DNA of 64,000 bases from Gonapodya prolifera JEL478 (taxonomy: Eukaryota > Monoblepharomycota > Monoblepharidomycetes > Monoblepharidales > Gonapodyaceae): contig KQ965842.1 of the NCBI GenBank assembly GCA_001574975.1, forward strand, positions 92,503 through 156,502, written 5' to 3'. Numbering within the stretch: position 1 is the first letter of the stretch; every line of letters starts with the position of its first letter. Below the pieces are notes generated by a model. The model saw only the letters and a list, made by a program, of their open reading frames with translations, was not told the origin of the DNA and did not search any database. This document shows, piece by piece, positions 8,982 to 64,000 of the stretch. The position numbers and the translations under genes are program-made.

Positions 8982-11900
8982 ATGCCGCCGCCGCTCGAGC
9001 GAGCATCGCCTGCGCCGCGCATCAGCAGCCACATCGCGCGCATCGGACAGCGAATCGGAGGGACGCGCCAACAGACGCACACCCACGCACAGCAGACGCA
9101 GACGCAGGCGACACACACGAAACTCGAAGCGGCGCAGAAAAACGAGGAGTCGCGTGCGAAATCGGCGCAGACTATAAATCTGACAAAGAAATCGACTCCC
9201 GCCCGACCCGCCCCCTCGTCACCCGCAATCACCCGTACGCCACTCGCCACCGCCAGGTCGCGCGTGCTGCAGGAGTCCCGCGCGCAGATCGCCTTGTGGA
9301 CGCCGGATGGAGATGTGGACGGCGACGATGTGGACTGTGGAGGTCGAGGGGGGTGGGACGGGAGGAGGTCCGCGTCGCCGCCCTCTCCAACGCAAACGCT
9401 CGTGGAGGAGAGGAGGGTGAGGCAGAGCGCGCAGACGCCGAGGGACAAGGTCGCGGGAGTAGGAGTAGGAGTAGGAGTAGCCGGAGGCGCGAAGAGGGCC
9501 ATGACGCCAAAGACTCGGCCGACGACCGACACTCGGACTAGGACTTTGACCGACACGCAGACTCGGCCTGTGGCGGATACTCGGACTCGGACTCTGACAG
9601 ACTCTCAGACCCGGCCTGTGACGGACACGCAGACTGAGACTCGACCTGTTGCAGACGCGCAGACTCGGACTCTGGCGGAATCTCAGACTCGGACTCTGAT
9701 AGACACTCAAACTCGGACTCTGACGGATACTCAGACTCGTCCTCTCACTACCACTCAGTTGGACACGAAGAAAGATTCTGACGGTGCGTTGAGTCGTTCA
9801 CCCTGCCATACTCCCACCCCACTACCTCTCACAACTTTACTCTCCCACCCACCCCTCTAGCCCCACTCCCACTCCCCCACCCACCCCAACACCGCCCCAC
9901 AACTCCACCCCCACCCTCCTCACCCTTCCACACCTCATCCGCGTACTACACCGCACCTTCAACTCCCACGTCTATGCGCACGAACAAGGCACAGCAGAAG
10001 CAGTACGGAACGCCGGCGAGGAAGTTGGATTTGTTTGCTGGCGGTCCAGGGGATGGGGACCGTTCTGCCACGACTGGGGGCGATGGCCCGACGGCGACGG
10101 CGACGGCGACGGGGGTGGAGAGAGCACACGCGCATAGGACCAAGACTGCACACGCACAGACACCGAAAAAACCAAACTCGAGTAGAGGTACTGCTACACC
10201 GCGCCTCCACCTCCCGCCCTCCAAGACATCCTACGAGGCATTCTCGGCGGGGTTGTTCCCCGCTTACGAGTCTCCGCTCAGGACCGGACCGGCGAGGATC
10301 GAGCCTATTCGGTGGGCGGATGTGGCGGATGAGCCGAGAGTCGGAGGCGGTGATGGGAAGGAGAAGGAGGAGGAGAAGGAGGATGTGCAAGCGCAGGGGC
10401 GAGGAAAGGGGCAGGTGCAGAAGAAGGAGATGAAGAAGTATGACGCGCTCTCGGCCAGTCTCTTTCCAGCGTATGAGTCCCCGTTGAGGAGTGGACCTGC
10501 TGCGAGGGTGGAGCCGATTCGGTGGCCCGATGTGGTGGGGGGTGAGGCGGGAGTGGGTGATGGTGTGGAGGAGAAGGCGGAGGAGAAGGAGGAGGGGCAG
10601 GTGGAGGAGCAGAAGCAGGGAAAGGGCCAGGTGCAGAGGCAGGAGATGAAGAAATACGACGCGTTCTCGGCGGGCCTTTTTCCAGCGTACGAGTCTCCGC
10701 TTAGGAACGGACCCTCTAGGGTAGAGCCGATTAGGTGGGCCAATGTGGCGGTTGTGGATGACGCCCGAGTAGAGGAGAATGGGAAGGAGAAGGTGCGCGA
10801 GCACCAGCAGGAGTATGAGCAGGACGAGGAGGAGTACGACAACGAGCAAGAGCAAGACGAGGACAAGGAGAACGTCGTGCCATCCGTCACGCCCGTCAAA
10901 CCACCTCGCCCTGCTGCTGTACGGTCGCCCGTCACACCTGTCACGGCGGGCACACCCACATCCCCATTCGCTGGCGGGACAATCACATACCCCCTCGCCC
11001 GCCCCACACCCGCACCCACACCCGCACCCACACCCGCACCCTCGATCGCACCGTCCCCGCGGTACCGCCTCCCCGCAACCCCGCGCACGCCGTCGCGCCT
11101 TAGGTTCGAGCTAAGACCGTCGTTGAGTCCGTCTAGCTCTGGTGAGGGGAGTCCCGCGGGAAGAGCCAGTTTGGGGTCCGCAAAGGAGCGTAGCCCCAGT
11201 GGCACGCCCGCGCGGGGAGGGACGGGGAGGCAGGCACAGGCCGTACAGGCGTCACCCCTAGGGAGGGATTTCGGCGCGGACGATTTTCCTGTCCGCACGG
11301 TACCGAGAGAGGTGTCGGTGCTGGATGAGATGAGTCTGTGGAGCGAGGCGGGGTCGCCGGGGAGGAAAGGTGCGTTTGCGTTGGGCTTGGTGCAAAGGTT
11401 TACGGCAGGTTCTCACTCACACCCCACACCCCACCTACTCCCGCAAACACCACTCGCACAGTCCGGTTCCGCTCGCACGTCTCCGAACGTACCGTGTCAT
11501 ACGTATCTTCGCGCAGTCTCGATGACACCTCGATGGGCCTTTCGCCCCACCTTCTCGTGCCGATGCCCCCCACCGAGGTGATGGACGGCGACTCGTTCAC
11601 GGAGTGGCTTGACGCCCGCGACGGTACGGACGAGGTGTGGACGAGATTGGATGAGGTCGTGCAGAATTGGGAGGGTGGTGAGTTTGCTTGTTTGTGTGGC
11701 GGGGTGCGGTGGGTGAGTGGAGTAAACTGACACGACTTTTGGGACGGTTGTAGGCGATGTTCCCCCCGCGCTCGCGCTCGCGAGACGCGCAGACAGAGAT
11801 CCAGACGCCGACATGTGGGACCGACCAGTGCCTGAGGCCGAGTTGCCGAGCGGTGTTGTGCCAGGGGCGAGTGTGGTTGAGGGCCAAGTGGTGGAGGGCG

Positions 11901-54386: not shown

Positions 54387-57300
54387 TCATTTTCCTCTGG
54401 TAGTTGTCGTAGAACGAGTTGCGGTACTTGTAGGCGTTCTTGTGTTGGTCGTAGTGCTTGTACGCGTGTTCGTGCTTGTGCTTGTACGCGTATTCGTCGT
54501 GCGTGTCTTTGTAGTTGTGGTAGTCGGTGTGCTGGTGATTGTGGTAGTTGGAGTATTTGTGGACGTGCTAGTCGTATTCGTGGTGGTGACGCTCGTGGTT
54601 GTGCTTGTGTGCGTTTTTGTCGCGGTACTCGTCTTAGTAAAAGTACTTGTGATTGTACGTGTCCTTGTAGTCGAGCTTGTCCGGGTTTTTGACGTGGTGC
54701 TCGTGCGAGTTCTAGAAGATGTTGACGTCCGTGTTTTTGTCGTGCGGGTTGTTTTAGTAACGGTCGTAGTCCTCGTAAGATATTGAACGGAACTCGAGCG
54801 AAACATTCACAAATTCTGAAAATTCTGGTCAACTCACGTGGCAGTCGTTTCCGTTTCCCTAAAGCTGGGACAACATATCAAAACACCATGACCAGAACGC
54901 CCCTACTTTTCTTCACTCACGTTGTTGCGCTTGTAGTTGTCGGAGTGACCCTGAAGTTTCAAGGAGACAGTTTAAGTCCGCCAAACTCCGAAACTGCAAA
55001 GGACATGCAACGACATTACGTTTCTGTCTCCGTTTCAGTGGAGGTCTCGCTGTCGACGGTACCATCCCTTAACGAACCGAAATAGAGAAAGATGAGCAGC
55101 AGAAGTCACTCACGTCGTTGTGGGGGTAATGCTGAACGTCGCGATTGAAGAGAAAAAGCAGGTTTTACGACAGCTCTACAATTTTTTCACTGGAATACTC
55201 ACGTCGTAGTCTCAGTTTCGGTGGTTGTAAGAGTCTCCCTTTGAACGGCAACCAAATTCCATAAAAACCCAACGGGCTCGAAGGAAGCAAAAGCAGAGCT
55301 TGAGAAATACTCACGACGAAGTCTCTGTGGTCGTAGGAGTTCCACTATAATACACAACCAAGAAGCAAATGACGTCAGAACAGGCGGTTCAAATGGCGTT
55401 AAAACGACAGCGGGTGCATACGCTGTGCTGTCAGTGGTTGTGAGAGTCTCCCTGTGATGGAGAACGGAGTTGACGTTTCATGTACAGTACATTAGTACCA
55501 ACCACACCTAAAGTACTCACGTCGTAATTTCTGTACTCGTAAGTGTCTGCGTGCTCGTCGTTGTTTCTGACGTAGTTGTAGGTGTCTCCGAAGCTGTTTC
55601 CGTGCTCAACGGTGTCTCCGAAGTTGACTCCGTTGTGGTCACTGTCTTTGACGTGGTTTCTGTCGTCGTCGGGATTTCTGTGGTCGTAGGAATTTTCCTT
55701 GAGCCAGAAAGGTCAGGTGTGCCAGTTCTGTTAGTGTCCCGATGTAAACTCGTGGACATTGGCAAACAAAACTCACGACGCCGTTTGGGCGGAAGAAGTA
55801 GACTCTCTGCAAAGAAGATGTAGGCGATCAGAGATTCTTGCGATTAAAAAAACACTGCAGTGGCTACTCGCCTGGTTGTTTCGGTTGATGTTTTTTGCGT
55901 CGCGCTTTGCATGGAAAGTAGAAGCAAAGCGTGAGTCGCATAAAAAACCAAGCGGGCGAAGAATTGCGCAGCTATAAGGTGTACTTACGTCTGCGTTTCC
56001 GTGTTCGTAAAGGTTTCACTTTGAAGGAGGGAGGGGAGGTGTTGATGGGAGGGATACAGACCGTTGCGTTAAAATATGTGAATTGCGGCAGGGCAAGTGT
56101 TGATGCTGTTCTCACGTTTGAGTCGCAGTCGGCGTTTCAGTTTCCCTTGAGGTCTCGGAGGTCGTTGCAATTTCGATGGAGGTCTCCGTCGTCGTTGGGG
56201 TTTCCGTGGAGCTCTCCTTGGTAATGGTCGACTCGCTACAACAAGATATTGAAGGTCAGAGATTTCTTGCGATTAAAAGACATTAGAGCGGGCACTTGCC
56301 TGGTTGTTTCGGTTGATGTTGTTTGCGTGGCACTTCACGGACAGGGAAGCAAAGAGTGAGTCGCATTAAGTCAAGGGGTGGAAAAACTGCGCTGCGTTAA
56401 GTAGCACTTACGTTTGCGTCACCGTCGTGGTGCGGGTGTTTGTTATCGATTCCGTGGAGGTTTCTGTCGTCGATGGACTCTCCGTTGACGTCTCTGTGGT
56501 CGAGGGAGTCTCAGTCGAGGCCAATTTGATCGTGGAAGCCTCCGTTAAGGTCAATGTGGTCGTGGAACCCTCCGTAGAGGTCCCCGTGGTCGAGGGAGTC
56601 TCCGATGAGGTCTCCGTGGAGCTTTCTATTGTCGAGGGTGTCTCGCTGGAGCTCTCCGTTGCTGCGGCAGTTCTCGTGGTCTCCGTGGTCGTCCGCGTGC
56701 TCGTGGGATTTTTTGTAGAGGTCTCAGCCGTCGTGCGAGTTTCCGTCGCGGACGCGGTAGTGGTAGAACTCTCTCTGGAAAAGTGTAAAGCAGAGAAAGA
56801 TCGGGCTTCGCGCACTGCGATTGCGCTATTACGTCAAAGAAACACCCACGTTGAGCTTTCCGTCAATGTCAATATTGGGGTTTCACTAAGGAGAGAGAGG
56901 GTCCGTCGAGAAAGCGCCAATACTATAATTAAAGAATGATAAGAATGATATGCAGACTCACGTTTCAGTCGCAGTGGTTGTGACGGATTCACTTGCAAAG
57001 GTGAGAGAAGAAAGAGCGCAAGGCATTTTGGTGTCAGGCAAGAACGCACGAACGAGGAATTCAACAGTGGCTTACGTTTGCGATTCTGTAGATGTGGAGC
57101 TTTCGCTTTGTCAGTTGAGGAATCGACGGGGGGTGTCAGCAGGGTGAAGTGTCTCGGACAACATCAAAATTTGGCAGATACTCACGTCGTAGTTTCGGTG
57201 ACCGTAGAGGAGCTCTCCGTGGTAGTAGGTACCTCTGTGGTGGATTCGGTGGTTGTGGAGGAGCTCTCCGTGGTTGTAGGTACTTCCGTCGTGGACTCGG

Positions 57301-60300
57301 TGGCCGTGGAGGAGCTCTCCGTGGTAGCAGGCACCTCTGTGGTGGATTTGATGGTTGTGGAGGAGCTCTCCGTCGCGGTGGCGGTGGAGGTGAGTGTTGT
57401 CGTGGTGAGACTGACAATGGTTTACGTGAGCAGAGGGTCTTCCAGAGATCACAGCGGGAAGTACTCACCTGGTTTCGGTGGCGGTTGCACTTGCTCTGGA
57501 AGAGTGGCAAGCAGAAAAAGGTCAGACTCCTCCCTCTTGTGATAAGGCGGACATGCCGTAGAAACACTCACGTCATACTTTCGGTAGTGGTTGCACTTTC
57601 ACTACAAGAGCGACGGAAAAGAGAGGTAGGAGTCTACGCTTTGTTGTTTCGCGTACATGCCCGAGAAACACTTACGTCGTACTTTCGGACGTTGTTGATG
57701 TTGCAGTTTCGCTTTCTGACGTAGTTATCAATGTCGAGGGTGTTTCCGACGTCGGTTTCGTGGTAATGGTGGTCTCGCTAGAAAGAAGATATGGGTCAGA
57801 AATTTCCTGCGACTGAAAACCATCACACCAGGTGCCCGCCTGGTTGTTTTCGTGGTTGATGTTTGCGTGGCGCTTCATATTGAAAAGGATGCAAAGAGTG
57901 AGTCGAATAAAGTCACAGGGGGCAAAGAAATGCACAACGACAGACTATACTTACGTCTGCGTCTCCGCTGTCGTGAGGGTTTCACTTTGAAGGAGAAGGA
58001 TGGAGGCGGGATACGGACCGTTGTGACAAAAGGCGTGGGCTGCGGTGTCGCGGGACTTTTCTTACATTTGAGATTCCGTCGTCGAAGGTGTTTCGCTTAT
58101 GGACAAACACGGTGCAAATGACGTCAGCCCTGGTGTGAAGGATAGTGTTGTTGAAGGGCGAGCATGTTAGAACGTACATCGTGGTTTCAGTGCTTGTAAG
58201 ACTCTCCCTAGATGTAAAAGGTAGCACCGATCGCGTAAGCAGTGGTGCAAACGAGTTCGCAGAGATCTGAACTCACCTCATAGTCTCGGTGCTTGTGAAA
58301 CTTTCGCTGAAGTTGAAAGAAGGAGAATCGCTTGTGTGATTGCTTCAACATATCGTCACAGCGCGGAGAGCTTACATTGCACTTGCGGTTGTAGTTGACG
58401 TTTGGGTTTCGCTTTGGAGAGAGAGGGTCAATCAAGTGATCTCTAACAGCAATCTCCAATGAAAGAATGATATGGAGACTCACGTTTCAGTCGCAGTGGT
58501 TGTGGCGGATTCACTTGCAAAGGTGAGAGGAAGATAAGACCGCAAGGCATTTTGGTGTCAGGCCAGAACCCACAAGGGGGGAATGCAACAGATGTTCACC
58601 TTTGCGATTCTGTCGACGTAGCGGTCGCGCTTTGTCAGTGGTGGAATGGATGTAGTTGTCAGCAGGGAAAAGTGTGTCGATCAACCATAAACCTTAGCGG
58701 ATACCCACGTCGACGTCTCCATGGATTTGGGGGTTTCCATGGAGGTGACCGCGGTCGTACCAGTTTCGGTGGAGGTCACCAGGGTCGTGGAGGTTTCAGT
58801 AAAGGTCACCAAGGTGGTGTCGGTGGTGGAGGGAGTCACCGAGGTGGTGTCCGTGGTCGAGATAGTCTCCGTTGAGGTCTCCGCGGTGGTGGAAGTTTCC
58901 GTCGTGGACGCGGTGGTGGTTGTACTCTCTCTGGGAGCGTGGTGAAGCAGAGAAATATTGGGCTCCACGCTCTGTGATTGCGCAATTACACCCCAAAAAA
59001 CACTTACGTGGAGCTTTCCGCAGTGCTAGATGTTGCGATAACATATTAAAGGGAGAGGTTCAGTCAAGGAAGCCCCAACACTGTTTCGAAAAGACAGATC
59101 AACAGGTGCAGAGACTTACGTCTGAGTTTGTGTTGATGTAACGGATTCACTTGCGAAGGCGGAAAGAAGGAAGACGGTGAGGCATTTTAGTGTCCGTACG
59201 CATAGAGAAGGAATTCAACAGTGGTTTACGTTTGTGTCTCTGTCGATGTGGCGGTTGCGCTTTGCCAGTGGAGGAATCGACGTGGATTTTATCACTGGGG
59301 TAAAGTAGATGGAACAACTGCAAATTTGGAAGATACCCACGTAATTGTTTCTGTGCTTGTGAGAGTCTCCGTCGAGGTCTCTGTGGTCGAGGGAGTCGCG
59401 GTCGAGGTGTCCGTCGTCGCGGGTGTCGCCGTGGAGGTGTCAGTGGTTATGAGAGTCTCCATGGAGGTCACCGTGGTCATGCTAGGTTCGGGGGAGGCTT
59501 CCGTGGTCGTGGTTGATTCTGCGGAGGTCACCGTGGTCATGCTAGGTTCGGCGGAGGCTTCCGTGGTCGCGGGGTATTCTATTGAGGTCACCGTGGTCGT
59601 GCCACTTTCGGTGGAGGTTTCCTTAGTCGTGGGAGTTTCCGTGATCTCCGTGCTCGTGCGTGTTTCCATGGTGGTCTCCGTCGTGGTAGTGGTGGTGACT
59701 TCTGCGGAAGTCTCCGTGGTCGTTCGAGTTTCGGTGGAGGTCTCCGTGGACGTGAGAGTTTTTCTTGAGTCAAGAAGTTCAGGCGTACCACTTCTGTTAG
59801 TCTCCTTATTTCTGAGCGGGTGGGTAGATACTCGCAAACGAACTCACGACGTCGTTTGAGTAGCCGTGGTGGAGTCGCTGCATGGCGAACAGACAAGGAA
59901 GAGAAATTTCAGGGAGTGCTTGTTTTCGAAAGCAATTCTAACGGGTATTCACTTGGTTGTTTCGGTTGCTGATGTTTGCGTCGCGCTTTTACGTGGCAAA
60001 AGGGAAGGAAAACGTAAGTCGCATAAAGCCAAAAGGGGGGGGGGGGGGGGCGGGAGAGGAAGAAGAATGGCACAGGGGTAGACAGCACTTACGTCTGCGT
60101 CTGAGTCTCCGTTGTCGTGATGGTGTCACTTTTGAACAAGGGGAAGCGGAAGGGGAAGGAATGAAACCGTTATAGTTATCAATGCTGCAAACGATCATAT
60201 CAGGGGTGAACGTGGCTCACGAAGTGGTTTCAGAGGTGGTCTGGGTCTGGGTCTCGCTGCAGGTGTGTAAACGGAAGGTGAGATCAAGATGTGAATCCCT

Positions 60301-61419
60301 GGATCGACCTGAAACAACAAATAACGTACGTTGTGCTTTCAGTCGTCATTTGTGTCTCCCTGTGTGAATGTACGATAAGAATTATTATAACAGAAAGCGG
60401 GACTTTGGGCGAAAGGTCGCCACAGTCACGTACGTGGTACTTTTAAGACGTCGGTATATTCAGTGCGGGTGAGTCGCTTTTTGAGTCGAACGAGAAGAGA
60501 AGAAAGAATCGACATCAAAAAGTGTCCTCACGTCACAGTCTCAGTTTCGGTTGTCGTTGGTGTTGGTGTCTCCCTACAATCGGGATCGCAAATCGCGTGG
60601 GGAAATAACACGTCACTGACGTCAGCACGATGGCATCAAAAGGTGCCAGCAAATGCAAGTGCGCTCACGTCGTTGTTTCAGTTGTAGTGGGAGTAGCAGT
60701 CGGAGTCGCAGTCGTGGTGGACACAGTCGTGGTTGTGCGGGTATTCCTACAACGCGGAAAGGGTCGCCCCAATGACACATTTTCGAACGGGTTTCATCTC
60801 ATCCCGCAGAGATGTAGAGTGGCTTACGTTGTGAGTGAAGTGGTTGTTTTCGTTGACCTGGTAACAGAATTGGAGAGTTTGTTGGGTGCCTGAGACCCCG
60901 CGAGCGTGCGTTGGACAGTGGACACGACACCCACGTTGTTCCGGTTGTTGTGCTGACTGGACAGCGTCGCGACGGAGTAAGCTCGGACCAGAACGTGTTT
61001 CCGGGCAGTGAACCACAACCCTTTCGAAACTCAATGACGTTGTTGACACATCGGAGGTCTGATGTTTCATTTCGACAGGGGAAGAACGCGGAATGGTGGG
61101 TGTGGGCAGGATCACAGTAACAGCGTCTCGACTTACTTGTGCCCCACGTCCAGTTTCCTGGCGTTGCGCAGAAGCATGCGCTGATGGTGTCACCAGGTAC
61201 CGGTGCACCTAACGATGTGACACAAGGCGATCCACGATGACGACATCACAAAGCTTCGGATCGATCGCGTCACTCACAAAGACGCGGAGCATTGATGCCC
61301 AGTCTGCAGTCGCTGTCCGACGTGCAGATGTCACCGGCCTTCGCGTCTGCAACGCGCACAAGGAGTGCAAGGAGACCGCAGAGCGCAAGCGCCACGGAGA
61401 GAAGGGAGGAGTTGCGCAT
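54387..61419 (-). CDS. Secreted Ser/Thr-rich mucin-like protein built from ~35 micro-exons
   Basis: The ATG at 61,419 opens a signal peptide (MRNSSLLSVALALCGLLALL, cut near VADAKA) and a Cys-rich head: CTSDSDCRLGINAPRLC, a 69-nt intron (61,277-61,209), then ISACFCATPGNWTWG, RRCYCDP, RNETSDLRCVNNVIEFRKGC and PSRRCPVSTTTGTT, at least 11 Cys. From 60,934 down to 54,786 the gene is a chain of small exons, each bounded by GT(G/A)AGT-like donors and AG acceptors. They encode S/T/E/P-rich text such as TSTETSTETRTTTETSAEV. Exons measured directly include 60,857-60,828 (30 nt). Longer ones lie at about 59,768-59,341, 58,930-58,710, 57,408-57,181, 56,775-56,410 and 55,697-55,520. Introns I checked are phase 2 and mostly split an AC|N Thr codon. 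The last exon (about 54,785-54,387) encodes KTRTSTSSRTRTSTTSKTRT-type text ending TTTTRGK. Total about 1,100 residues. Likely a heavily O-glycosylated cell-surface or matrix protein; no GPI or TM tail is seen. Confidence 0.75.
56958..59290. repeat. Multi-exon block present three times inside the mucin-like gene
   Basis: Similar stretches begin near 56,958, 58,478 and 59,116. Each contains two exons and the intron between them in the same order: an exon read on the plus strand as GTTTCAGTCGCAGTGGTTGT, then intron text AGGCATTTTGGTGTC(A), then an exon GATTCTGTxGAxGTxGxGxT with TCGCTTTGTCAG. Introns are conserved along with exons, so whole genomic segments were copied. Confidence 0.75.
60035..60050 (+). 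repeat. G16 homopolymer in an intron
   Basis: A run of 16 G lies in an intron of the minus-strand mucin-like gene, so it is C16 in the transcript. It may be real or a sequencing artefact. Confidence 0.9.
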
Positions 61420-61794: not shown

Positions 61795-64000
61795 TCAGTT
61801 ATGGCCGCTGTTGAAAGGCTGGTTCCAAGGCCTATAAAATACACGTGTAGCCGTTACCGTTGACGAAAAGAACCTTGAAGAAACTAATATAGCTCGGCTC
61901 ACCTCGCACGCGGACGGTACTCTGGACTGGGTGGGTTCTCAGGTCCGAGGTTTGGGGCGACAGGCATTGTTGCCGTGGCACTCGTAGTTCTAGCAATTAT
62001 TTGGATTTCGAAGAGGTTTTTTTTTTCGAGGACATATGTTCGGAGCGTTAGAATCAGGGCATTGAGCATGGTTCGCAACACCAGAAGAATTTCATCAACT
62101 TACGCAGGGTCAATTTCTTTAACGAATGCGGCTTGGAGTTTGATGCCGACTGTCATTGTTGTTGTGGCGGTCGAGGTTGGAGTTTTGCTGCAAGCAGGGT
62201 GGGGTGGGTCATCAGTCATCACGCACACCGCTCAAAGTCAAGATCGCACGCCAAACTTACCTAGTCGTTTTAGATGTCGTGGTCGAACTGATCAATCGGT
62301 CCAAAATTAGAATGCAACATATGGAGTTGAAATGGAAATCTGGACCTACGTTGTGGTGGTGGTCGTAGTCGAGGTCGTTCGCCTAATGTTTGCAAAGTGT
62401 CATCAATTATCCAAGTGTGCCCATAGCATTCGATCGAGTCTTACCTGCACGTCTTCGTCCTGTACCGTACGCAAAAAGAGGAAAAAAATACATCCAAATT
62501 CGTTACTTTGATATGTCCACCCCACCAACAGTCAAACTCCACTCACTTCCGCCTTGTGTGCCTTCGCGCCTTTGAATATACCGTACCATTTGAGGACGCC
62601 GTCGAGGTGCTGGAGGTGCTGGAAGTACCGGTGACGGTCATGGAACTCGTCGTGGCGAAGGTTGACCTGCACACACGTGAAACCAGAGTCCATTGAACGA
62701 CTGCGTTCAAAATAACGCTTACGTCGTGGTTGTTTCGTTCTCTTCATCCTCGTCGCACACATCTAATGCAGTGGTCGCCACGGCGGCGACAGTTGTGGTT
62801 TCATCAATCCCTGCGGCTTGAGGCCCAGCACCTAGAGCCATCGCAGTCGTGGGCGCGGCTTGGTTCGCTCCTGCTGCTTTGGCTACAAAGCCATTGTTTA
62901 GCGGAGCGAGAGTTTTCGTTGTCGTCATTGTACGAGTCGCAGTCGTCGAGGACGTCCGGGTATTCGTGGCAGTACTGGTGCGAGTTTTGGTGCTGGTCGT
63001 GGTGGTAGCAGTGCGAGTCTTTGTCGACGTGCTTGTACGTGTCTTTGTGGCGGTACTTGTCGGCGTATTCGTGGTTGTTGCGGTTGTGGTGATGGTGCTG
63101 GTCCGCGTCGCTGTCGTTGTGAGCGTGCGCGTCCGTGACGTTGTCTTGGTACGTGTCCGTGACGTTGTGGTTGTGCGTGTCTTGGTGGTTGTGGAAGTTT
63201 TCGTTTTTGTTCTCCGTGTTGTTGGAGATGTCACGGACGTGGTAGGACTACTGATTGGGCTCAAAAAAAAGAAGTCGCGAAATATGTAAAAAAAAATTGC
63301 CAACTCACGTAAAAGACGTTTCAGTGGTTTCAAGGCTGCAACCAGAGAGGTGCGGGTAAGCATGACGATTGGGAGAATAAATATGGAGCAGACATTACGT
63401 TGTTGTTTCCCTGACAGACACAATAGGAATGATAAGCTCTCAAAGAACAAGACGAAATCTCCAAAACGCTACTCACGTGGGGGTCTCTGTGGTTTCAGTT
63501 TCGGTGGAGGTGGGAGTTTCACTTAAAAGGAGTGCAAGTGACAAAGGCGGAACACGGTCTGTTGTGTCAAAAGGCGTGGGCTCCCGCGCTGCAAGACGCT
63601 TTCTTACGTTTCGCTTTCCGTCGTCGTCTCGGTTTCCCTAGAAGAGAAAAAGGCAAAGGAAGAATATCAACCTTATTGTCCAACGGTACACAAGCGCACG
63701 ACAATGCTTTCACTCACATCTGCGTTTCTGTCGTTGTGGTTGGTTCATTTGTGGTTTCCGTCGCCGTCGATATCACAGTCTCCGAGGACATTGCTGTCGA
63801 TGTCAGAGTCTCCGTGGATGAGAGACTCTCGCTGAAAAGGGGATGCAGAATAGACTGCGTAAGCGGTGCATCTACATGAAGTCGAGGCGGCAGGAACTCA
63901 CGTAGTCTCGGTGGTTGTGAGACTCTCGCTGAAAAGGGGATGCAGAATAGACTGCGTAAGCGGTGCATCTACATGAAGTCGAGGCGGCAGGAACTCACGT
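61795..64000 (-). CDS. Second Ser/Thr-rich micro-exon gene (5' part off window)
   Basis: A tandem neighbour of the gene at 54,387-61,419, with the same design. Working 5' to 3', visible exons include 63,928-63,902 (27 nt: ESLTTTET), several S/T exons to 63,480, and a long exon at about 63,240-62,720 (PTTRRTKTKTSTTTKTRTTT... ending CDEDEENETTTT). Then follow STFATTSSMTVTGTSSTSST, a 15-nt micro-exon near 62,455 (TKTC), RTTSTTTTTT, STTTSKTT, KTPTSTATTTMTVGIKLQAA FVKEIDPA, and ATTSATATMPVAPNLGPENP. The last exon (61,831-61,795) encodes PWNQPFNSGHN and a TGA. Introns checked are phase 2. Unlike its neighbour it carries an Ala/Gly-rich, acid-ending segment (AMALGAGPQAAGIDE) and a non-repetitive C-terminus. 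The start and any Cys-rich head lie beyond 64,000. Probably a paralogue. Confidence 0.65.
63824..64000. repeat. Exact 97-bp tandem duplication of one exon plus one intron
   Basis: Positions 63,824-63,903 are identical to 63,921-64,000 (80 of 80 bases, limited by the window edge), period 97 bp. The unit equals a 27-nt micro-exon (63,902-63,928) plus a 70-nt intron (63,929-63,998). Both copies keep splice sites, and the exon is phase 2-2, so the frame is kept. Confidence 0.95.

Follow-up and report, generated by a model that had tools for sequence, protein, structure and literature searches.

Variation in the repeat length of secreted fungal proteins is usually viewed as slippage inside one long exon. 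Repetitive animal proteins such as fibrillar collagen, elastin and the PEVK region of titin are encoded by chains of short frame-neutral exons, those of collagen starting with whole codons, and a paper from 1988 reportedly describes tandemly repeated exons that encode 81-base repeats in Schistosoma mansoni. The micro-exon genes (MEGs) of schistosomes are characterized by a signal peptide, a secreted or anchored product and chains of very short symmetrical exons whose removal leaves the frame unchanged, with splicing proposed to vary the product; most of their coding length, up to 75% in S. mansoni, lies in small exons (PMC4350168; PMC4015677). According to a further paper, the polymorphic mucins of S. 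mansoni (SmPoMuc) form a clustered multigene family in which a 27-bp exon and its introns stand in tandem as a unit of about 1 kb, with one type of small exon, up to 20 repeats per gene and intronic parts that are more than 94% alike, a similarity that prevented assembly; in spider silk, protein repeats match genomic tandem repeats of exons and introns (PMC2576457). Here, we describe a gene at positions 54387..61419 (minus strand) of a 64,000-nucleotide (nt) stretch of DNA, hereafter the window (C112:92503-156502), whose right end is the end of contig C112 (C-numbers denote contigs of the searched genome, 47.56 Mb in 207 contigs). Its product is probably a mucin-like, secreted protein rich in Thr and Ser, with a repeat array that consists of intron-bounded units and grows by frame-neutral duplication of DNA. 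The host is likely a flagellated (zoosporic) fungus; the same genome holds matches to a fungal-type chitin synthase and to the flagellar RIB43A family, each of which was found in none of 14 control genomes.

The gene starts with an ATG at 61419 and ends with a stop codon at 54387, which is exactly the span proposed in a previous sequence-only reading of the window. According to a Viterbi gene model that allows GT and GC donors, with three head exons read by hand, it consists of 47 exons and 46 introns (58-107 nt, median 77) and encodes 1,158 amino acids plus the stop. Three exons encode a Cys-rich head and 44 a Ser/Thr-rich (S/T) region, which the previous reading had divided into about 35 exons. 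Its claim that many of these are tiny holds: 35 of the 44 S/T exons are no longer than 45 nt, 34 no longer than 36 nt and 20 exactly 30 nt, the remaining small ones being five of 36 nt, four of 33 nt and single exons of 42, 27, 21, 18, 18 and 6 nt. The other nine S/T exons are longer (78-423 nt) and carry two thirds of the S/T coding length, and exons of up to 51 nt account for 1,044 nt of the 3,139 nt of S/T coding sequence (3,477 nt in the whole gene). The exon of 6 nt (60434-60439) is doubtful, and dropping it affects neither frame nor phase.

The introns of the S/T region are uniform in phase. The two head introns are in phase 1, and all 44 later introns, from exon 3 onwards, are in phase 2, as the previous reading had claimed for those it checked; each of the 43 internal S/T exons is a multiple of three nucleotides and bounded by phase 2 on both sides. 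It is also correct that most of these introns split a Thr codon (29 of 44, with a further 8 splitting a Ser codon). The expectation that a joint would nearly always leave a Thr was too strong, since over 946 possible skips the joint residue is Thr in 635 and Ser in 148, and a stop codon is never formed. Retention of a single intron would lead to a stop or a frameshift for 45 of the 46 introns, so that the evidence favours variation in the DNA over variation in splicing.

Splice sites were part of this result. A model restricted to GT donors, with the head not fixed, yielded six phase-0 introns, located after exons 1-3 (in a misread head) and after exons 27, 36 and 39 of the S/T region, and was discarded. 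When GC donors were allowed and the head was read by hand, three GC-AG introns appeared and the phase-0 introns were gone. Their donors, at 57839, 56299 and 55871, each follow AACAACCAG and all belong to one family of similar introns, and the three probably share one origin. The donor GTRAGT is present in 23 of the 46 introns. Acceptors read AAG rather than CAG or TAG in 19 of the 46 (54837-61277), a share that looks unusual. An uninterrupted stretch of 16 G in intron 10 (plus strand, 60035-60050; 16 C when read in the coding direction) could be hypermutable.

Chance controls were run with a local model with hand-set splice weights, an S/T-rich composition and uniform codons, which was unfitted and chosen after the gene had been seen. 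On the gene, this model reached a score of 1019.2 with 46 exons and with 45 of 45 introns in phase 2 from exon 3 on. The top score among 200 dinucleotide shuffles was 22.5, with phase 2 in 97 of 230 introns, and the plus strand scored 9.8. When the exons were kept and the introns shuffled (50 versions), the mean score was 483 and phase 2 was found in 360 of 1386 introns (26%), which is the effect of the model's built-in preference for Thr-rich exons alone. A run over the whole of 50-64 kb, which also crosses the head and an intergenic gap, placed 59 of 64 introns in phase 2.

The introns were also compared with each other. None of 600 null alignments scored as high as the best 28 of the 1,035 intron pairs, although the weakest of these 28 lie near the null maximum. 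Nine similarity families hold 29 of the 46 introns, and 20 of these 29 lie in collinear multi-exon blocks, which indicates duplication of units, with multi-exon blocks copied as blocks. In block A, introns 13-14-15-16, 17-18-19 and 29-30-31-32 match in order, and in block B introns 23-24-25, 33-34 and 35-36-37-38. The frame-neutral copying of exons that the previous reading had suggested is thus visible as collinear blocks within the gene and, as described below, as tandem units of exon and intron in two relatives. The exons flanking the 28 intron pairs are 0.71 (upstream) and 0.76 (downstream) identical, as compared to S/T averages of 0.63 and 0.64, and a flanking side exceeds the 95th percentile of all S/T exon pairs in only 12 of the 28. 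In 12 equal-length pairs of small exons (125 sites per codon position), identity is 0.81 at codon position 1, 0.85 at position 2 and 0.62 at position 3, as expected of coding sequence.

The S/T exons are arranged as follows. Behind the head, exons 4-12 (59848..60857), joined by phase-2 introns, lie at 60828-60857 (30 nt), 60669-60746 (78), 60532-60573 (42), 60434-60439 (the doubtful 6), 60330-60359 (30), 60221-60256 (36), 60093-60128 (36), 59953-59985 (33) and 59848-59877 (30). They are followed by the long exon 13 (59341..59763, 423 nt) and by the first copy of block A (introns 13-16) with exons 14-16 (59008..59259), which lie at 59230-59259 (30), 59120-59149 (30) and 59008-59025 (18). The long exon 17 (58709..58930, 222 nt) precedes exons 18-25 (57840..58629), a run that starts with the second copy of block A (introns 17-19) and ends in block B (introns 23-25). 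These exons lie at 58600-58629 (30), 58484-58513 (30), 58376-58411 (36), 58277-58306 (30), 58178-58207 (30), 58066-58095 (30), 57955-57984 (30) and 57840-57872 (33, with a GC donor). Next come exon 26 (57676..57777, 102 nt), exons 27-28 (57469..57601), at 57572-57601 (30) and 57469-57495 (27), and the long exon 29 (57186..57410, 225 nt). The third copy of block A (introns 29-32) goes with exons 30-32 (56850..57105), at 57076-57105 (30), 56962-56991 (30) and 56850-56885 (36), and is followed by the long exon 33 (56412..56774, 363 nt). Further copies of block B (introns 33-34 and 35-38) go with exons 34-38 (55777..56332), at 56300-56332 (33, GC donor), 56116-56235 (120), 55989-56018 (30), 55872-55904 (33, GC donor) and 55777-55806 (30). 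Exon 39 (55521..55697, 177 nt) leads to exons 40-46 (54838..55451), at 55422-55451 (30), 55315-55344 (30), 55203-55238 (36), 55114-55131 (18), 55020-55049 (30), 54921-54950 (30) and 54838-54858 (21), and the gene ends with exon 47 (54387..54771, 385 nt including the stop).

At the protein level, the commonest exon is one peptide repeat, usually cut within the residue that precedes a Glu. Aligned with each other, the 20 exons of 30 nt spell a single decapeptide, x-E-[TS]-x-T-[TS]-T-E-[TS]-[QT], with Glu at position 2 in 14 and at position 8 in 12 of them. Over 920 residues, identity at a lag of 10 residues is 0.438, as compared to 0.262 +/- 0.011 (maximum 0.299) in 1,000 shuffles. The period is also found inside long exons: of the seven that were tested, lag 10 is highest in exons 13, 17, 26 and 33, lag 10 is narrowly exceeded by lag 20 in exon 35 and by lag 6 in exon 39, and exon 29 has an internal repeat of 51 nt (17 residues) instead. 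In exons 17 and 35 the repeats clearly keep the register set by the intron-bounded start, in exon 26 they barely do, and in the other four the best register is shifted.

The head is encoded by exon 1 (61278..61419, 142 nt, ending in phase 1), with a signal-peptide-like segment and the first head Cys, exon 2 (61137..61208, 72 nt, ending in phase 1), with a SACFC motif common to two tandem relatives, and exon 3 (60935..61058, 124 nt, ending in phase 2), in which the Cys-rich part ends and the Thr-rich part starts. It contains 9 Cys rather than the 11 counted before, one of them inside the signal-peptide-like segment. The N-terminal hydrophobic segment has a mean hydropathy of 2.47 from residue 6, with the peak over residues 3-25, and is a signal peptide as judged by hydropathy. 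The target head matched no Pfam family, the heads of two relatives none above the cut-off, and a comparison of the head with PDB sequences gave nothing above the cut-off (best E-value 0.82). The S/T region (1,048 residues) consists of 47.2% Thr, 15.5% Ser, 11.9% Glu and only 3.5% Pro. Its stalk is acidic (23 basic and 132 acidic residues in 918), and the Thr-rich tail encoded by exon 47 is basic (20 Lys/Arg and no acidic residue in 128), with no visible anchor: the largest 19-residue hydropathy mean in the last 60 windows is -0.52, with no predictor of glycosylphosphatidylinositol (GPI) anchors run. Stretches rich in Thr, Arg and Lys also occur near the S/T ends of two relatives, gene 0 and gene -1, which are introduced below. 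This composition suggests that the product is probably a secreted protein with a Thr-rich, O-glycosylated stalk, which might play a role in adhesion or in a coat or slime. The previous reading had proposed a mucin-like surface protein; the secreted, mucin-like and Thr-rich character agrees with our analysis, while a place at the surface does not follow, as no hydrophobic C-terminus is visible.

The gene belongs to a small clustered family. A search with the head found two further copies, both on contig C46. The end of C112 and the start of C46 share 28 exact bases (window 63973-64000; C46:1-28) inside tandem units of exon and intron, and the two contigs very probably adjoin, with one of the copies, gene 0, spanning the break, so that three tandem genes lie across it. 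The 3' part of gene 0 is located at approximately 62151..64000 (minus strand) and its head at C46:741-1222. Two tandem 97-bp units of this gene reach the contig end (63807..64000, minus strand) and are alike at 94 of 97 bases, their 70-nt introns being identical and their 27 exon bases showing three differences. The other copy, gene -1 (minus strand, from C46:7800 to about 3500), has the same head and S/T exons of, for example, 24, 33 and 60 nt, and carries at its end a Trp/Cys-rich module of roughly 42 residues, present in triplicate (exons read by eye). A locus on contig C4 is a probable fourth relative. Its head match is weak (E-value 3.5e-4) and includes Thr-rich residues of the query; the locus holds two identical 30-nt exons 95 bp apart, and three neighbouring introns are 84-86% alike. 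A run of at least 71 N lies next to these exons. Phase 2 was found throughout the parts of the relatives' S/T regions that were counted, namely in 12 of 12 (local model, 3' part) and 6 of 6 introns of gene 0, 11 of 11 and 6 of 6 of gene -1 and 5 of 5 at C4 (40 of 40 in total), with the count for gene -1 omitting the surroundings of an N at position 5645 of C46, at which a run over the whole locus yielded one phase-0 intron, regarded as an artefact. A whole-locus run of C46 that crosses other sequence too placed 36 of 51 introns in phase 2.

We also looked for similar chains across the genome. A strict donor-to-donor pattern for 30-nt exons was too strict, with two matches genome-wide, one of them in the window. 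A looser Thr-rich donor pattern gave 67 matches versus 50 in the reversed control, so that only clusters are informative. Clusters of at least three matches are present only at C112 (13), C46 (14) and C4:67.8-69.8 kb (7), which together make up 34 of the 67, while the other 33 are singles or pairs at background level (pairs within about 2 kb at C3, C35, C58 and C93). As far as this donor pattern can see, the extreme form of the exon chain may be confined to a small family.

The Trp/Cys-rich module of gene -1 (CDTIYAAY...MT..DY.DW..W.C..W..GIG, C46:3500-4270) belongs to a large family: tblastn found 109 matches to it at E<=1, spread over 27 contigs of this genome. It matched no Pfam family above the cut-off and no PDB sequence at E<=10, and scans of viral contigs gave no match for the head or for this C-terminal module. 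We scanned 34 stretches for S/T chains, most of them around the module and some with only 1.5 kb of flank. Short chains purely in phase 2 were found at module loci on C4 (5 of 5), C82 (4 of 4) and C94 (3 of 3), and mixed phases on C27 (3 of 4), C103 (4 of 6), C63 (3 of 5), C31 (13 of 32, in a long run) and C67 (0 of 1). In some module-sharing genes the best S/T chain is essentially one exon (593 nt on C31, 354 nt on C202 and 192 nt on C118). The earlier premise that low-complexity S/T proteins are encoded by one long exon is true in this genome for some genes that have a domain in common with a relative. Elsewhere in the window, tandem repeats of 24-48 bp and of about 216 bp are located in long open frames at 9524-11052.

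With regard to mechanism, we posit that a founding intron-bounded repeat with phase-2 introns set the phase for all its descendants. The array would then expand and contract through changes in the DNA itself, with units of exon and intron undergoing unequal exchange or replication slippage, and as each unit would consist of whole codons with its own splice sites, the frame would be kept at every change. Such a change would only make a secreted protein of a stalk, coat or slime longer or shorter and probably affect how heavily it is glycosylated, and off-phase copies would break the protein, by which uniform phase would be retained. The view of the previous reading that this is a modular design is thereby partly supported, in that the gene appears modular by descent, with an exchange of units at the DNA level as the best mechanism. 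Several observations weigh against this account. Small exons make up only one third of the S/T coding length, and 17 of the 46 introns have no family. The copies in the target are old, paired introns agreeing at 0.74 even though the pairs were picked for high similarity, and among 113 paired codons 38 differ with a change of residue and 21 silently, which points to loose constraint. Glycosylation and secretion, moreover, are suggested by composition and a hydrophobic N-terminus.

The strongest alternative is that the chain is a non-adaptive by-product, in which an ancestral repeat with a phase-2 intron was duplicated and the exons have no function beyond coding for a long repetitive protein, or in which the introns even break up the DNA repeat and thereby stabilise it. 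Collinear blocks account for the shared phase by descent alone, and the divergence of most target copies would damp exchange. The near-identical 97-bp units of gene 0, on the other hand, suggest that exchange is ongoing in at least one relative, and we consider this explanation a serious contender without expecting it to hold.

Diversity could also arise at the level of splicing, with variable exon skipping producing many lengths from one gene, as in schistosome MEGs. The frame neutrality of all 43 internal S/T exons and the lack of a stop at any of the 946 joints would permit this, and in eukaryotes generally the exons that are skipped tend to be short ones (PMC6335736). According to the same source, skipping goes with weak splice sites and with flanking introns of greater length, whereas here the median intron is short (77 nt) and half of the donors read GTRAGT. 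In a published survey, exon skipping in fungi was comparatively low, and intron retention exceeded skipping in all but one of the species studied (PMC6142364). Exon skipping is thus possible in this gene, but less likely than change at the DNA level, and as the main source of variety we regard it as unlikely.

An origin similar to that of introners, in which introns were inserted independently at AC|G sites of an intronless Thr-rich repeat, appears more improbable still. In its favour, the decapeptide is interrupted at one and the same point in many units, the flanking exon exceeds the 95th percentile in no more than 12 of the 28 similar intron pairs, and introner-like elements are said, in the title of one paper, to occur in fungi. 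Against this, the exons that flank the 28 pairs are more alike than average, and 20 of the 29 family introns lie in collinear blocks. Finally, a decayed or untranscribed repeat array with surviving splice-like sites would fit the loose residue constraint, but is hardly credible given 1,158 codons open over 47 exons (a weak point alone, since the model required openness), GT/GC-AG introns throughout, the codon-position bias between copies and the same structure in relatives.

Returning to duplication of intron-bounded units, we tentatively suggest a further step, namely that a zoosporic fungus may have independently evolved a design of the schistosome type, in which peptide repeat, exon and recombination unit are one and the same, and in which ongoing exchange would make length hypervariable between individuals, perhaps in the context of adhesion, slime, or the coat of a cyst or zoospore. 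What changes as a unit appears to be an exon together with its introns, so that repeats could be gained or lost without harm to the frame, and the locus would represent a fungal case of convergence on schistosome MEGs and mucins. It offers a testable case of whether chains of symmetrical exons are there to diversify proteins or result from duplication as a by-product. Genes of this kind are easily missed or broken by annotation and assembly, and one relative already spans a contig break. Among the matches listed in a search of open-licence literature on fungi and symmetrical exon chains, no title concerned a fungal gene of this kind, and the consulted part of a chytrid genome paper contains nothing on such genes (PMC5364385).

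Compared with known systems, the fungal gene shares with MEGs a chain of very short symmetrical exons and a signal-peptide-like N-terminus. It differs in that small exons make up about 30% of its coding length (1,044 of 3,477 nt) and not the majority, in that it belongs to a fungus and not a flatworm, and in that its product is a Thr-rich protein of 1,158 amino acids whose exon unit is the peptide repeat. Ser/Thr-rich tandem repeats, here with a period of 10 residues, are a feature of mucins, and the likeness to SmPoMuc extends to the clustered family, the tandem units of exon and intron of gene 0 at the contig end and the pair of identical exons at C4. The fungal unit, however, measures about 95-110 bp, and most of the target's 44 S/T exons have diverged, as have the blocks within it. 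Modular spider silk shows the same correspondence between protein repeat and exon-intron repeat, but is an animal silk, and collagen, elastin and titin PEVK are animal proteins with other repeats. Within the same genome, the genes with long Ser/Thr exons are Thr-rich near the module shared with gene -1, but differ by their single long S/T exon. Taken together, the fungal gene appears to work like MEGs and SmPoMuc, a likeness of design that does not establish membership in either group.

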